Position numbers and translations under genes: made by a program | In this document: piece by piece, positions 16,060 to 24,911 of the stretch | Layout of the letters: each line of letters starts with the position of its first letter | Position numbering within the stretch: position 1 is the first letter of the stretch | From: Pontiella desulfatans | GTDB taxonomy: Bacteria > Verrucomicrobiota > Kiritimatiellia > Kiritimatiellales > Pontiellaceae | Reading direction: 5' to 3' | Length of the DNA: 36,914 bases | Assembly (NCBI GenBank): GCA_029287275.1 | Contig: JARFRL010000063.1 | Coordinates: 1-36,914 of the forward strand | The notes under the pieces: model-generated | Told to the model about the DNA's origin: nothing | Database searches by the model: none | What the model saw: the letters and a program-made list of their open reading frames with translations, nothing else

Positions 16060-16755
16060 CTACTCCTCCTCTTTAAAGCGATACCCGATTCCGCGGACCG
16101 TTTCAATATACTTTCCCGAGTCGCCAAGTTTCTTGCGGAGCCCGACGATCTGCACGTCGACGGAACGATCCGTCACGGGATAATCGTCGCCATGGACGGC
16201 GTCCACGATCTGATAACGCGTGAACACGCGGCCCGGCTGCTGGGAAAGCAACTGGAGAACCTTGAACTCCGTGAACGTCAGCGCGACGTCTTGGCCGTCG
16301 ACCTCAACCTTGTGCCGAGCCACGTCGATCGTGATGTTGTGCGCGGAAATCAGCTCGTCGTTCCGCTCCGGCTTGCTGGTGGCGATGCGCCGCAGGGCCG
16401 CCTTGACCCGGGCCAGCAGGACCCGCGGGCTGAACGGCTTCGTGATGTAGTCGTCCGCGCCCAGTTCCAGGCCGGTCACCACGTCCGCCTCCTCGCACAG
16501 CGCGGTCAGCATGATGATCGGGATGCGCTCGGTTTTCGGATCGGCCTTCAGCCGCTTGCAGACTTCAAGTCCGTCGGCGCCAGGCAACATGATGTCCAGC
16601 AGGATCAGGTCGGGCTGGAATTGCGCGGCGATGGTTAGAGCCTCCTCGCCGGAGTCCACCACCTTCACGCGATACTTGCCCCGCTCCAAGTTGAATTGCA
16701 GCAGTTCCTGAATCGGCGCTTCATCCTCAACAACCAAAATCTTGATCTTTTCCAT
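16060..16755 (-). CDS. phoB: Phosphate regulon response regulator PhoB (OmpR family)
   Basis: Receiver ILVVEDEAPIQELLQFNLE, LILLDIMLPGADGLEVC, GADDYITKPFSPRVLLARVKA; winged helix VDVQIVGLRKKLGDSGKYIETVRGIGYRF. Confidence 0.94.
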   Translation of the reverse strand: MEKIKILVVEDEAPIQELLQFNLERGKYRVKVVDSGEEALTIAAQFQPDLILLDIMLPGADGLEVCKRLKADPKTERIPIIMLTALCEEADVVTGLELGADDYITKPFSPRVLLARVKAALRRIATSKPERNDELISAHNITIDVARHKVEVDGQDVALTFTEFKVLQLLSQQPGRVFTRYQIVDAVHGDDYPVTDRSVDVQIVGLRKKLGDSGKYIETVRGIGYRFKEEE

Positions 16756-16937: not shown

Positions 16938-17969
16938 ATGAGTGATTACGCCCAGATTCCCATGCGTTTCGTAGGTCCTTTAAGAGTTTCGGGTCCCGTG
17001 CTCGAAGGCGACCACGAAGTACCGCTCGCGACGTACGAAACGCCGCTTTGGCCTTCCGTCAACCGCGGCGCGCGCGTTTCCATGAACTGCGAAGGCGGAA
17101 TCCAATGCGCCGTCATCGACGATCGCATGACGCGCTCCGTGCTGTTCGAGGCGCCCGACGCGGTCGCGGCGCTGCGGGCGCTCCAAAGCATCAAAGCCGA
17201 CTCGCCGACCCTTGAAAAGGTGGTCGAGGGAACCAGCCGCTTCGCGAAGCTGATCAACATCAACTCCCAGATCGCGGCGAACCTGCTCTTCGTTCGCTTC
17301 GAGTTCACGACCGGCGACGCCTCCGGCCACAACATGTGCACGCAGGCCGCGGAAGCGCTCATGAACCACATTCTCGCGGAACACCCCGAATTGAAGTACG
17401 GCTCCATCTCCGGAAACTATTGCTCCGACAAAAAGGCCACCGCGGTGAACGGCATTCTCGGCCGCGGCAAGTACGTCGTCGCGGAGCTGACCATTCCCGA
17501 AAAGATCTGCCGCCGCTATCTGAAAACCACGCCCGCGAAAGTCGTGCAGCTCAACATCCGAAAAAATCTGATCGGCACGTTGCTGGCGGGCGGCTCGCGC
17601 AGCGCCAACGCGCACTTCGCCAACATGCTCCTCGGCTTCTATCTCGCGACCGGGCAAGACGCGGCCAACATCGTTGAGGGCTCGCAAGGCTTCACCATCG
17701 CCGAGGAGCGCGATGGCGATCTCTATTTTTCGGTCACGCTGCCGAATCTCATCATGGGCACCGTCGGCAACGGCAAGGGGCTCGACTTCGTGCTGGAAAA
17801 CATGGAGCGCATGGGCCTGACCGAACCGCGAGAGCCCGGCGAGAATTCCAAGCGCCTCGCCTGCCTTTGCGCCGCGCAGGTGCTTTGCGGAGAACTCTCC
17901 CTGCTCGCCGCGCAAACCAATCCCGGCGAACTGATGGACGCGCACCGCCGCATCGAACGCGGCCAATAA
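16938..17969 (+). CDS. Hydroxymethylglutaryl-CoA reductase
   Basis: MRFVGPLRVSGP, ATYETPLWPSVNRGARV, FEFTTGDASGHNMCTQAAEALM, SGNYCSDKKATAVNGILGRGKYVVAE, NLIGTLLAGGSRSANAHFANMLLGFYLATGQDAANIVEGSQ, LPNLIMGTVGNGKGL match HMG-CoA reductase signatures. Confidence 0.92.
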   Translation: MSDYAQIPMRFVGPLRVSGPVLEGDHEVPLATYETPLWPSVNRGARVSMNCEGGIQCAVIDDRMTRSVLFEAPDAVAALRALQSIKADSPTLEKVVEGTSRFAKLININSQIAANLLFVRFEFTTGDASGHNMCTQAAEALMNHILAEHPELKYGSISGNYCSDKKATAVNGILGRGKYVVAELTIPEKICRRYLKTTPAKVVQLNIRKNLIGTLLAGGSRSANAHFANMLLGFYLATGQDAANIVEGSQGFTIAEERDGDLYFSVTLPNLIMGTVGNGKGLDFVLENMERMGLTEPREPGENSKRLACLCAAQVLCGELSLLAAQTNPGELMDAHRRIERGQ

Positions 17970-17987
17970 AACCGGCCTGTTTCGATG

Positions 17988-18021
17988 AAAACGCCTTGTT
18001 GAACACAGGGCGTTTTTTTTT
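17988..18021 (+). terminator. Intrinsic terminator after HMG-CoA reductase
   Basis: AAAACGCCTTGT-TGAAC-ACAGGGCGTTTT (one U-G wobble) followed by T-run. Confidence 0.85.
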
Positions 18022-18025
18022 CGCG

Positions 18026-18108
18026 CTAACTCAAGCTTAACGGTTTGCTCGCCGATTCTTCATGGAATGCCAACAGCTTCCATGGCGTCTCCTAATCATT
18101 CCCAAACA
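18026..18108 (+). promoter_or_regulatory. Extended 11-bp-phased Pho box array upstream of the beta-helix gene
   Basis: Hexamers at 18026 CTAACT, 18037 TTAACG, 18048 CTCGCC, 18059 TTCATG, 18070 CCAACA, 18081 CATGGC, 18092 CTAATC, 18103 CAAACA, all at exact 11-bp spacing; at least five fit [CT]NAA[CT]N. Confidence 0.5.
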
Positions 18109-18331
18109 CGAAACCCGCCAAATGTGCGGCGTCGAAGGGAACAAGTCCGTCGAGGCGGAGATTATTTAACCGAACCCAATCCTCTTTGACGTTTCAGCGG
18201 ACTTGATGGAAACCGGGCGGAAGAAACAGAAAAGACCGCCGGTTCCACTCCCCGAGACACGGTTAGGTAAAAAAAGCAATATTGCGGGCGACCGCATAAC
18301 GATCGAACTAAATCATTGAAGGAGAAAATTA

Positions 18332-20095
18332 ATGAAGAAACAATTTATTATTGTAGCAGCTATGGCTGCTGGCCTGGGTGCCCAGGCCGCTACAAACTAC
18401 TGGGGCGGCGACATTGTCGGCTCTACGGGCTGGTTGGCCGCTGATACGCATATCATGACTAACCGTGTTACCGTTCTTCCGGGTGCAACCCTGACGATCG
18501 AGCCGGGGACTACCATCACTTCCGACGGTGGTTCTTTGGCTATTTCCTCGGGTGCTCAGATCAATGCCGCGGGTACTTCCAACGCGCCGATCACCTTTAC
18601 CTCCATCAACGACGACTTCGCTAACTGGCGTCCGGTGTGTCAGGAGTGGGGCTCACTCGCGATCATGGGCGAGGGTATCATCTCTTCTCACGTCTACAAA
18701 GGTAATGTGATGAACGGTACTGACGTAGATACTCCGGCAGCTGTTGGTACGCACGCGCGCATCATGGAAGGTCTTGTTGCTGTTGGTGACGGACGCGAGG
18801 CGTACGGTGGAAACAACGACGACTACGATGCGGGTACGCTTTCCTACGTTTCTTTCCGTTACGGCGGACAGGTTCTGGAAGAAGCTTCCGAGCTGAACGG
18901 TCTTTCCCTCGGTGGCATCGGTCGTGAAACTCAGATTGATCATATCGAAATCATGAACAACGTTGATGATGGTATCGAAATCTGGGGCGGAACCGTCTGC
19001 ATGAAATATGTATCCATCTGGAACATCGGCGACGACAGCTTGGATTGCGACCAGGGATGGCGCGGCAAGGTTCAGCATGGTCTGATCGTTCAGGGTTATT
19101 CCGCTAATGCTAAACAGGGTTCCGGTGTTGGTGATAACTGCATCGAGATGGACGGTTCTGAAGACTCCGACTGCGAACCGCACACGACTTCCACCCTGTA
19201 TAACTTCACGGTGATCGGTAACCACACCAAGGGTGACCACGGTATGGCGCTTCGCGACAACGTTCGTCTGCAGGTTCGTAACTCCATCTTCATGGATGTC
19301 CCGGACGATCTGATCGACGAAGAGCTTGACGGTGACGGCGGTTCCGGATGGAACTTCGCGGCCGGTACTGAGGTTGATGGTGGTGGTAAGTACACTCTTC
19401 GCACCGCTCTGAAAACGGTTCCGAATATGGAAGACACTTACGGTGTCGCGTTTAACGCGAACGCCTACAGCAATGACCTTGTTCGTATCACGGCTGCCGG
19501 CAAGACCGCTGCTGAAATCTACTGGGCGCAGGCTGACGGATACATGAACGAGCTGACCGACACCGTTCTTTACAATGTTAAAAAAGGTCCCCACGTCGAT
19601 GAAATCGAACTGTTGAATCAGCCGGGATACGACGTTGTTTACGCTGACTCCCTCCCGATTGCCGCATACGCGCGTGGTGCCGAGCAGAGCCTTTTCGGTG
19701 GAACGCTGACTTGCTCGCCGGTCGTCAAGCTTGACCCGCGCGCCGCCAACGACGCCCTGGTTGCTGACTCCCTGCCGACCAACGACGGCTTCTTTGACCT
19801 GGTTTCCTATCGTGGCGCTTTCAGCGCGACTGAAAACTGGCTCGAAGGTTGGACCGCTGCTGACCAGTATGGATTCCTCGGCGAAGCAACGGATGCTGCT
19901 CCGGGCATCTCCACGGGTGTTCTGCTGAACTGGGCTTCTGTTGAAAATGGTTTCTACCAGGTCGAAAGTGCTGACGACGTAGGCTTCACCAGCAATGTTG
20001 TTGTTGAAGCTACCCTTGAAGGCACTGGCGTCGAAATGTACTTCGGTGATCCGGCTCTGTCCGCGTCGAAATTCTTCCGCGTAACCTCTTTCTAA
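18332..20095 (+). CDS. Secreted right-handed parallel beta-helix repeat protein
   Basis: Signal peptide MKKQFIIVAAMAAGLGAQA; TNRVTVLPGATLTIEPGTTITSDGGSLAISSGAQINAAGTSNAPITFTS then repeats such as LSYVSFRYGG, IDHIEIMNNVDDGIEIWGGTVCMKYVSIWNIGDDSLD; C-terminal ...FYQVESADD...FFRVTSF; GAAGGAGAAA RBS. Confidence 0.85.
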   Translation: MKKQFIIVAAMAAGLGAQAATNYWGGDIVGSTGWLAADTHIMTNRVTVLPGATLTIEPGTTITSDGGSLAISSGAQINAAGTSNAPITFTSINDDFANWRPVCQEWGSLAIMGEGIISSHVYKGNVMNGTDVDTPAAVGTHARIMEGLVAVGDGREAYGGNNDDYDAGTLSYVSFRYGGQVLEEASELNGLSLGGIGRETQIDHIEIMNNVDDGIEIWGGTVCMKYVSIWNIGDDSLDCDQGWRGKVQHGLIVQGYSANAKQGSGVGDNCIEMDGSEDSDCEPHTTSTLYNFTVIGNHTKGDHGMALRDNVRLQVRNSIFMDVPDDLIDEELDGDGGSGWNFAAGTEVDGGGKYTLRTALKTVPNMEDTYGVAFNANAYSNDLVRITAAGKTAAEIYWAQADGYMNELTDTVLYNVKKGPHVDEIELLNQPGYDVVYADSLPIAAYARGAEQSLFGGTLTCSPVVKLDPRAANDALVADSLPTNDGFFDLVSYRGAFSATENWLEGWTAADQYGFLGEATDAAPGISTGVLLNWASVENGFYQVESADDVGFTSNVVVEATLEGTGVEMYFGDPALSASKFFRVTSF

Positions 20096-21448: not shown

Positions 21449-21465
21449 CTAACAAAACGCTAATG
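21449..21465 (+). promoter_or_regulatory. Two-unit Pho box upstream of TonB-dependent receptor
   Basis: CTAACA-AAACG-CTAATG, same hexamers as the pstS array; TATAAC at 21499 is 33 nt (22+11) downstream. Confidence 0.55.
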
Positions 21466-21556: not shown

Positions 21557-24500
21557 TTGGTGAAGAAATCCTTGAGGAATCTGTTGGTTACAGTGTGCTT
21601 GTTCTGCTCGTTGGAGGCATTTGCGCAGAAGGGGGGTATTCGGGGAACCGTGATGGATCTGGACTTTGAAGTCCCGCTTCCCGGGGTGAAGGTGGTGATT
21701 TCTGAGAACGGTCAGGAAACCGTCACGAGCGATGCCGGTAGTTTTTATCTGGAGCAGATGGAGCCTGGTGCTTACACTGTTATGTTCAGTAAAGCCGGTT
21801 ACGTCCGCGTGACCAAACCTAGCGTTGTTGTTTCTCCTGGACAGCTGGCGGAAGTCGAAGCGTCTCTGGCCGGTGAATACGAAGAAATGGATGAGCTGAT
21901 CGTGAAGGAAATTTCACTGGGCGGCGCATCCGAAATCGGCCTGTTGAATCTTCGTATGGAGAGTTCGGCTTTGATGGATTCCGTTGGCGCGGATCTGATC
22001 AGTCAGGCCGGTGCCAGTGATGCCGCCGGAGCGCTCAAGCTGGTATCCGGGACTACGGTACAAGACGGTAAATACGCCGTTGTTCGTGGTCTGCCTGATC
22101 GATATGTGGTTTCAACGTTGAATGGGGTGCGTCTGCCTACCGCCGATCCCGACAAGCGCGCGGTGCAGTTGGACCAATACCCTGCATCCCTGATTGAAAG
22201 TGTCCGCGTTCTAAAATCATTCACACCTGATCAGCAAGGCGATGCCTCGGGGGGTAGTGTCGATGTTGTTTTGAGAGGTATTCCGGAAGAGCGGTTACTG
22301 AAATTTAGTGTGGGCTCCAAATTTTACAGCGATCAGGCGGATGACGGCGAATTTCTTACGTACGAGCAGAGCGAGATGGAATATTGGGGCAAGCGCGATT
22401 TTAATCCGCCGCCGGATGCCGGTGCGGCCGCCGCGCCCGCACCCCAGACGGTAGAGGGTTCGTACGGGACGAAAAAAACCGATCAACCCGATAATTTCAA
22501 CTGGGCTATCGATGCCGGGGATCGATTTGAATTCGATGCGTTCGGCGAGGATTTCTCGCTCGGAGGCTTGGCAACATTCAGTTACGAGCAGAAGGCCTAT
22601 CATCGTGACGGCGTGATTGAGGATAAATATTATGAAAACGACGCCGCGGCTGCTTATCTAGACTTGGAACCCGATCAGTTGGCTCCTTACTCGGATGGCA
22701 GGTACCAGAATGGAATTCTTCAAGTTGATGAACTCGTTCTGACGGATTTATACGATATCACCAAAAGTACACATGAAATCAATTGGAGCGGGGCTTTGGC
22801 CGTCGGGTTGGAGCATGAGCTTCTCAAATTGAATTATCTACATGTCTTTACGCACAATGCTGAAGATTCTGCCATTGTGTCCAAAGATACCCGTGGACGA
22901 GAACTCTATAATCCCCAGTATCTCGATTATGTCGATGGATCCGATCAATCCATTAATGTGGCCCCTTATCGGATATTCGAGGCTATGCTGTACAAGGAGC
23001 GTGACACCCATTCCGACCAGTTTGGAGGAGAACTGACTATTCCTATTCCTGAATTCGGGTCGGATGGTATCTTCCAGTTTAAACGCCCGGTTTTGGACTG
23101 GAAGCTGTCTGAGGGTTCGTCCTCCCTTCAGGAACAGAAAGAAATTTTGGCCTATACGTGGATTCCTGGGGCAGTGATCTCATCTCCCGATCCGGAATAT
23201 GACTGGATAATCGGTATTCCACCGCCCGGATCCTATCCAATTGATACGCTGGGTAACTTTGCGCCCGGCGCGGCTTGGACCAGTGCGTTTACCAACTCCA
23301 TTGGTGAAGTATATACTCCTCCAGCTGTCAGTGCGCAGTTCCGCTCTGACTATGACGCCTTCCGGCGTTATATCGAAGCGAACCCGCAGCTTGGTTTGGT
23401 CTTCCCTGATTTCGCGTGGTTTAACGAAGACATCTATGATTTGGGTGCTGTTCCAGAAACGATCACCGGTGTGGAATCCAATGGCACATACTTTGCCGAT
23501 GAGCCCCAGGAGCAGTTGGGTAACCGCCAGATGATCTGGCAGGAAGTGGTTGAAGAGAGTGATCAGATTGCCTTCAACTATAAGTGGGACTTCGCCAACT
23601 GGACGGAAGATGAGGGCTATTTCAAAGCGGGCCTGTTTCAGGACCGCGTCGACCGCAAGTTTTTCCAGCAGTCCCTCAGTAACAAGGACCGGGGGGTAAG
23701 CATCCCGACCTTTAAAGCGCCATGGGATGTCGGTCTCGTGGAGCTCTTTCCGGCAAATTCTCCGACAGCGATGTATGCCTATTTCGGAGATGTTCAATAC
23801 ACGGGTAATCAGGATATTGATGCCTACTATCTCATGTCTGATTTTCCCGTGTTTGATTTTCTGTCTGTACGGGGCGGGGTGAGATACGAGAAGTTCAAGC
23901 TGCAAACGTTCCTTGATCCGGATGACGATTCAGTTGCCCGGCAAATTCTTCCGGAGAACGGTGCGCTGGCATTCCTTAACGCGAAGCCGGGCGGAGGCTA
24001 TGAGGAGGATGCGGATTATAATCGTTCAGACTATCTACCCTCCTTTGGTTTTGATGTGACCCCTGTAGATAATATCATGTTCCGTTTTAATTGGGCGCGG
24101 ACCGTGGCTAAACAGCAGTTTAAAGAGGTGGTTCCTATCATTCAGCGAGAATATGCCGGTGCGCCGGCCTTTTATGGCAACCCTGATCTGGTAGCGAGCC
24201 CGGTGGAAAACCTTGATTTCCGTTTAGACTACACGCCTTATCCTGGAGGGCTTCTTTCCGCGTCTTTCTTCACCAAGGATATTGAGGAACCGATTCAGTA
24301 TTACGAGTCTTCAGATGGTAACGGACAGAAATATACTTTTGTGCGAAATTATCCCACGGCATGGGTTCGCGGATATGAGCTGGAGGCGCGCCAGTCTTTA
24401 GGCCAATTCTTTGATATCTTTGAGGGCGTTGGAGTCGGCGCAAACTTCACGCTCATTGAAGGTGAAGTGGATTTGGACGATGGAACAACCAGTGACGTCC

Positions 24501-24844
24501 AGGAGATGCCCGAATATCTAGCGAACGTGTTTTTCACTTACGATATCGATTTTATGGATACTAAACTGGGTCTCTTCTACACGCATCAGGGTGACACGCT
24601 GAAACGCGTCAAAAACACTACGGGAGGCTCGCCGTCTCCTGCCGTTTATGCGCTACCTTATGGAGTATTGAATTTCACGGTGTCTACAAAGATAACCGAT
24701 CATTTCAAACTAAGCTTCAAAGCCAAGAACCTGACTGATCCGGATATCGAGACGGTCTATCGCGAAGCTGGGTATGAGGATGCGATTCGCAGTTCGTATA
24801 CGAAAGGACGGGAGTATTCGATTGGATTGAGCACCACCTGGTAA
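21557..24844 (+). CDS. TonB-dependent receptor with N-terminal carboxypeptidase-regulatory-like domain
   Basis: Signal peptide; IRGTVMDLDFEVPLPGVKVVISENGQETVTSDAGSFYLEQMEPGAYTVMFSKAGYV; plug VSGTTVQDGKYAVVRGLPDRYVVSTLNGVRLPTADPDKRAVQLDQYPASLIESVRVLKSFTPDQQGDASGGSVDV; C-terminal barrel ending ...EYSIGLSTTW. Start is non-ATG (TTG 21557 or GTG 21560). Confidence 0.94.
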   Translation: MVKKSLRNLLVTVCLFCSLEAFAQKGGIRGTVMDLDFEVPLPGVKVVISENGQETVTSDAGSFYLEQMEPGAYTVMFSKAGYVRVTKPSVVVSPGQLAEVEASLAGEYEEMDELIVKEISLGGASEIGLLNLRMESSALMDSVGADLISQAGASDAAGALKLVSGTTVQDGKYAVVRGLPDRYVVSTLNGVRLPTADPDKRAVQLDQYPASLIESVRVLKSFTPDQQGDASGGSVDVVLRGIPEERLLKFSVGSKFYSDQADDGEFLTYEQSEMEYWGKRDFNPPPDAGAAAAPAPQTVEGSYGTKKTDQPDNFNWAIDAGDRFEFDAFGEDFSLGGLATFSYEQKAYHRDGVIEDKYYENDAAAAYLDLEPDQLAPYSDGRYQNGILQVDELVLTDLYDITKSTHEINWSGALAVGLEHELLKLNYLHVFTHNAEDSAIVSKDTRGRELYNPQYLDYVDGSDQSINVAPYRIFEAMLYKERDTHSDQFGGELTIPIPEFGSDGIFQFKRPVLDWKLSEGSSSLQEQKEILAYTWIPGAVISSPDPEYDWIIGIPPPGSYPIDTLGNFAPGAAWTSAFTNSIGEVYTPPAVSAQFRSDYDAFRRYIEANPQLGLVFPDFAWFNEDIYDLGAVPETITGVESNGTYFADEPQEQLGNRQMIWQEVVEESDQIAFNYKWDFANWTEDEGYFKAGLFQDRVDRKFFQQSLSNKDRGVSIPTFKAPWDVGLVELFPANSPTAMYAYFGDVQYTGNQDIDAYYLMSDFPVFDFLSVRGGVRYEKFKLQTFLDPDDDSVARQILPENGALAFLNAKPGGGYEEDADYNRSDYLPSFGFDVTPVDNIMFRFNWARTVAKQQFKEVVPIIQREYAGAPAFYGNPDLVASPVENLDFRLDYTPYPGGLLSASFFTKDIEEPIQYYESSDGNGQKYTFVRNYPTAWVRGYELEARQSLGQFFDIFEGVGVGANFTLIEGEVDLDDGTTSDVQEMPEYLANVFFTYDIDFMDTKLGLFYTHQGDTLKRVKNTTGGSPSPAVYALPYGVLNFTVSTKITDHFKLSFKAKNLTDPDIETVYREAGYEDAIRSSYTKGREYSIGLSTTW

Positions 24845-24879
24845 CGACCACCTAACAAACCACTCACTCAGCGCGAACA
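24841..24879 (+). promoter_or_regulatory. Four-unit Pho box array upstream of DUF3450-Exb-TonB operon
   Basis: GTAACG-ACCAC-CTAACA-AACCA-CTCACT-CAGCG-CGAACA (24841, 24852, 24863, 24874), exact 11-bp period. Confidence 0.5.
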
Positions 24880-24911
24880 TTTTGGAAATAGAACTCTAGC
24901 CCGAGGTAAAC

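Follow-up and report, generated by a model that had tools for sequence, protein, structure and literature searches.

A probable multi-box PhoB operator followed by a structured RNA leader upstream of a beta-helix/TonB uptake operon in Pontiella desulfatans

PHO boxes, the targets of PhoB and PhoP in Escherichia coli, Bacillus subtilis and Streptomyces, are tandem 11-nt direct repeats, with several units in complex operators (PMC4415409). Secreted proteins that respond to phosphate limitation have been described in two other bacteria. In Flavobacterium johnsoniae, the beta-helix-like lipoproteins FI, FII and FIII, modelled with a polygalacturonase-like fold, are strongly induced at low Pi and clustered with TonB receptors; FII lies in the phoBR cluster, and another lipoprotein of this type, not FII, is the most abundant exoprotein (PMC8115612). 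In Caulobacter crescentus, ElpS is strongly induced at low Pi and co-occurs with the TonB receptor CC0171 (PMC2996285). A literature search returned nothing directly relevant on a Pho box in the lineage of Pontiella desulfatans or on a Pho-linked leader RNA.

Here we analyse a window of 36,914 nucleotides, by which we mean the whole stretch of DNA studied. Its minus strand carries phoU, pstB, pstA, pstC and the genes for a PstS-like protein, an OprP-type porin and a Na/Pi cotransporter (nptA), together with phoR and phoB. On the plus strand, an array of 11-bp units is followed by genes for a beta-helix protein, a TPR protein, a TonB-dependent receptor, DUF3450, ExbB, ExbB, ExbD, TonB and a TPR protein, an order conserved in much of the genus (Table 1). 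The array resembles a PHO box (PMC4415409) in its 11-nt direct repeats and in having an OmpR-type response regulator as presumed recogniser, and here it adjoins the phoBR/pst genes. It differs in its consensus, CTAAC/CTAAT-N6-CTAACA rather than CTGTCAT or GTTCACC, and in its layout, in which three dyads repeat every 33 bp and a structured leader RNA comes next. The accessible portions of the ElpS and FI-FIII reports mention no structured leader (PMC2996285, PMC8115612), whereas one is present here. Like ElpS and FI-FIII, the first protein of the operon is secreted (beta-helix-like in FI-FIII) and has a TonB-dependent receptor nearby, a likeness of description and gene context; unlike the FI-FIII lipoproteins, it has no lipobox that can be recognized by eye in its N-terminus. 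Orthologues were found within the same genus. The protein matches no family in Pfam or NCBIfam and has no match among PDB sequences. Structure prediction gave a model of moderate confidence (pLDDT 70.7); its best fold matches are weak and mostly right-handed beta-helices, with a best E of 0.004, none at E<=0.001, and a TM of about 0.2. In three genomes a PhoB-like regulator with 53-57% identity to that of the window is encoded after the TonB operon (L044 10039-10725, L050 12891-13568 and L053 12003-12677).

Table 1. Positions of the array, the leader and neighbouring features in the window
Feature	Position	Strand	Basis or remark
PhoB-type response regulator, presumed array binder	16060..16755	-	Response_reg + Trans_reg_C
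HMG-CoA reductase gene adjoining phoB	16938..17969	+	Several genomes of the genus share this neighbourhood
Intrinsic terminator of the HMG-CoA reductase gene (AACGCC...GGCGTT, T-run)	17988..18021	+	Visible in the sequence itself
Distal Pho dyad CTAACT-N5-TTAACG (array units 1 and 2)	18026..18042	+	Dyad score 9.8, rank 18
Middle, weaker dyad TTCATG-N5-CCAACA (units 4 and 5)	18059..18075	+	Dyad score 11.2, rank 15
Core Pho box CTAATC-N5-CAAACA (units 7 and 8)	18092..18108	+	Dyad score 15.8, rank 8
Putative -10 element CAAATG, 10 bp 3' of the core box	18119..18124	+	CAAAT conserved here in most relatives
Structured RNA leader, a three-way junction of closing stem P1, long hairpin P2 and hairpin P3	18129..18261	+	Covariance model R1
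Hairpin P4, GCGG-GCGA-CCGC with a GNRA-type loop, ahead of the ribosome-binding site	18284..18295	+	In 11/13 copies
Ribosome-binding site AAGGAGA	18319..18325	+	Sequence; kept in relatives
Gene for the secreted beta-helix protein, the first in the operon	18332..20095	+	ORF; signal-peptide-like N-terminus
TonB-dependent receptor	21557..24844	+	One gene downstream of the beta-helix gene; best NCBIfam model TonB-Xanth-Caul, below model cut-off
Second in-phase 11-bp Pho-like array (GTAACG, CTAACA, CTCACT, CGAACA, GAAATA, CTAGCC)	24841..24901	+	Before the DUF3450/ExbB/ExbD/TonB genes

The initial annotation had placed eight hexamers on one 11-bp register from 18026 to 18103, and the sequence bears out these coordinates: reading at 18026+11k gives, in order, CTAACT, TTAACG, CTCGCC, TTCATG, CCAACA, CATGGC, CTAATC and CAAACA. 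Scores were obtained with a 17-bp dyad matrix of the PhoB-box type. Four genomes supplied the training sequences, taken from upstream of pstS, pstC, nptA, the OprP-type porin and phoB, and a fifth genome added one weak phoB site. The beta-helix promoter was left out of this matrix; its seed, CTAAT-N6-CTAACA, was picked after the training promoters had been read, and by then the beta-helix promoters had already been seen. With the matrix trained on other Pho promoters, the five hexamers described as Pho-like (CTAACT, TTAACG, CCAACA, CTAATC and CAAACA) reach 6.6, 4.0, 5.7, 7.7 and 4.3 bits, in agreement with the claim that at least five fit; the other three, at 18048, 18059 and 18081, reach 0.5, 0.3 and -12.2 bits, so that the first two are marginal and the third does not fit. 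The description as eight in-phase positions is true of the register and not of eight equal sites: the strongest pattern is that of the three dyads, 33 bp apart, with weaker in-phase units. Among about 73,800 window positions the dyads take the ranks given in Table 1, the top five being training sites.

Autocorrelation of the matrix scores across 17970-18331, a check that had been set beforehand, shows the expected 11-bp peak, the strongest lags being 11, 33 and 22 bp. Short degenerate words are common, and base composition might produce such a periodicity by chance. However, none of 2000 dinucleotide shuffles matched the observed 11-bp autocorrelation, none matched the eight-position sum and none brought three dyads that score over 9 bits into a single register, while in relatives the register is kept across 12 genomes. 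In the raw eight-position sum, 18026 is second of the 73,664 starts in the window, behind 24830; in the positive-only sum it is first. The shuffles and these ranks lead us to regard the periodicity as real, and we reject a chance origin, whose probability we take to be negligible in view of the shuffles and the conservation of the register. The array had also been called the longest in the window, a title that it holds by positive-only sum but has in common with the array at 24841-24901, which leads by raw sum. Since a helical turn takes 10.5 bp, units spaced by 11 bp drift around the helix, and the placement of the array on one DNA face is only approximate.

Conservation was judged from 13 promoters in 12 genomes of the genus, compared gap-free over the array and anchored on the leader RNA. 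Although their median identity is only 54%, information content peaks at hexamer phases 0-4, and every dyad above 5 bits within -115 to -20 falls in a single 11-bp register. That register, which is the one of the array, also holds all six of the top mean positions (-37, -103, -92, -70, -81 and -48). The core box occupies the same offset (-37) in 13/13 promoters, at 9.7-20.3 bits, and the distal group is present in nearly all. One alternative is that this core dyad alone functions as a Pho box and that the remaining in-phase hexamers are relics or sites of another factor. Its mean score is indeed far above the others and it is the sole dyad found in all 13 promoters; the middle dyad keeps a GCCAAC core in many relatives but passes 5 bits in just 5/13, and the poor fits at 18081 and 18048 point the same way. 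Yet the distal positions -103 and -92 are next-best by mean score, in the same register of a fast-changing promoter, and the shuffles never yielded three strong dyads in register. A single working box thus appears improbable to us. In-register conservation extends over -103, -92 and -81 in relatives, and unit 3 (CTCGCC), which is in register here, is better in several of them (CTAGCG or CTTACG).

We interpret the eight-unit array as very probably the PhoB operator of the beta-helix/TonB uptake operon, a reading drawn from sequence comparison. The array has the 11-nt period and the minimum of two direct repeats expected of a PHO box, and its motif is common to other Pho promoters of the genome. 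The proposal that it is the Pho-box operator of the beta-helix gene is supported by this motif, shared by pst, npt, porin and phoB promoters, by its site in the phoBR cluster and by the register kept in 12 genomes. Exact matches to CTAAY-N6-CTAACA number three in the 2.87 Mb genome, all on this 36.9-kb contig; CTAAY-N6-CWAACA has four, all in the Pho cluster of the contig and lying upstream of or near pst/npt genes and the beta-helix gene, with 18092-18108 among them. CTAAY-N6-CTAACA with an 11-bp period thus offers a testable Pho-box consensus for a little-studied lineage, and the conserved TonB uptake operon is indicated as a member of its Pho regulon.

Based on these observations, we propose the following model. 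Under phosphate starvation PhoR would phosphorylate PhoB, which would load head-to-tail onto the 11-bp repeats, as in known PHO boxes. The core box would recruit polymerase at the -10 element 10 bp downstream, while the distal boxes (18026-18075) may raise occupancy. The transcript would start near 18131 (about 18129-18131) and carry first a three-way-junction RNA of some 130 nt and then a small GNRA hairpin; this leader may tune or protect the mRNA. As a whole, this account of a Pho-regulon operator that drives the beta-helix/TonB operon, from PhoB loading to the start site and the leader, seems to us highly likely. The operon would be induced by Pi starvation. The initial annotation, right in kind, also proposed that PhoB may load cooperatively and that the induction may be very strong; strong induction is suggested by analogy with the low-Pi-induced lipoproteins of Flavobacterium (PMC8115612) and Caulobacter ElpS (PMC2996285). 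The -10 element is poor relative to the sigma-70 consensus, and promoter prediction found no promoter there. The terminator of the HMG-CoA reductase gene, which ends 4 bp before the array, is absent from the list of a terminator finder whose loop limit is 8 nt.

The second array (24841-24901), like the structured leader, had been missed by the initial annotation. It lies between the TonB receptor and DUF3450 genes, is present in nine other genomes inspected from the same genus and is likely to be an internal Pho promoter. A further Pho-like dyad, CTAACAAAACGCTAATG at 21449-21465, is situated upstream of the TonB receptor gene (score 15.6, rank 9 in the window).

The leader is the more novel part of the locus. 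A covariance model, R1, was built from six sequences. Across 12 genomes of the genus it recovered 13 full-length copies (62.8-136.9 bits) and a further one that a contig end truncates. When the alignment is fitted to the model, 94.5% of cells pair and 37 double-sided changes are seen, whereas shuffles give 13.5 (0/500); in an alignment made from sequence only, 91.1% pair, with 31 double-sided changes against 13.2 (0/500 for both measures). No convincing copy was found outside the genus in 288 genomes from the class and 388 from the phylum; weak matches there (G065, G111, G193, G388 and G432; 24.9-28.4 bits) were treated as chance, and those inspected (G065, G111 and G193) lie inside or adjoin unrelated coding sequence. 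In the window and ten related loci no family of Rfam 15 attained its gathering score, and such matches as appeared were at chance level. The leader is like the candidate structured RNAs of Rfam 15 in being a covarying cis leader ahead of an operon, and unlike them in belonging to no family at gathering score. It was also considered as coding sequence, a reading we rejected: its length varies from 125 to 137 nt among copies, most of which lack a frame that is open throughout. Strongly supported, without an Rfam family and tied almost always to one operon, it is a candidate new class of regulatory RNA and an entry point for studying the control of secreted phosphate-scavenging proteins beyond transcription initiation.

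R1 copies are almost always directly upstream of the beta-helix/TonB operon, with a single copy in most genomes, and 10/13 full-length copies precede an apparently intact beta-helix start. In one genome (G014) the full-length copy ends with its contig and the cut copy precedes the beta-helix gene; in another (G019) the copy is ahead of a disrupted beta-helix start. A third (G011) lacks the three-way junction but keeps a Pho dyad and the P4 hairpin. The protein there still has 84% identity, which shows that the leader can be dispensed with. In a 70%-identical relative (L063, 2601-3000; labelled Flavobacteriales, probably mislabelled) the Pho repeats are followed by a different long hairpin and no R1 RNA. 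The stem of P4 is near-invariant and its loop varies as GNRA. As a genome-wide mark, P4 gave 20 matches against 12 for the reversed control and is therefore not specific alone.

What might the leader do? As a best guess, it would tune an abundant Pi-starvation mRNA post-transcriptionally or stabilise it. One form of this, a 5'-terminal stabiliser or translation enhancer that needs no ligand, is a real possibility, if somewhat short of even. The leader begins at or beside the 5' end predicted for the transcript; among the low-Pi exoproteins of Flavobacterium johnsoniae, an analogue of the gene product is the most abundant (PMC8115612); and in the 70%-identical relative without R1 RNA a different long hairpin stands downstream of the Pho repeats. 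Some unpaired bases, however, are conserved beyond the needs of a plain stabiliser. More tentatively, the leader may be a new class of cis-regulatory RNA, either riboswitch or protein-binding element, placed directly behind a multi-box PhoB operator so that the operon is gated twice: Pi starvation would act at initiation and a second signal, perhaps the imported substrate, after it. The narrower proposal, in which a riboswitch sensing a metabolite or an ion would make Pi-driven expression depend on a second condition, we consider rather doubtful. Conserved covarying structure is present, comprising a three-way junction, covarying stems and conserved unpaired stretches (GAACCC and a purine internal loop), and most genomes have one copy ahead of an uptake operon. 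Against this, there is no clear expression platform, since neither a terminator nor a conserved anti-Shine-Dalgarno pairing is visible by eye, and the RNA is missing from the genome (G011) that retains the protein and a Pho dyad. Nor does covariation support a pseudoknot between the 5' P1 strand (GUCGAAG) and the conserved CUUUGAC of the P2 loop: 91.7% of cells pair, but covariation is at the level of shuffles (302/500 attain the score), and for this reason we do not claim it.

The G001 genome has a second copy of the promoter and leader (L034 1380-1761), ahead of a 35-aa membrane peptide (MNTIGFYYTQ...). Homologues of this peptide sit between DUF3450 and ExbB1 in the TonB operons of five genomes.
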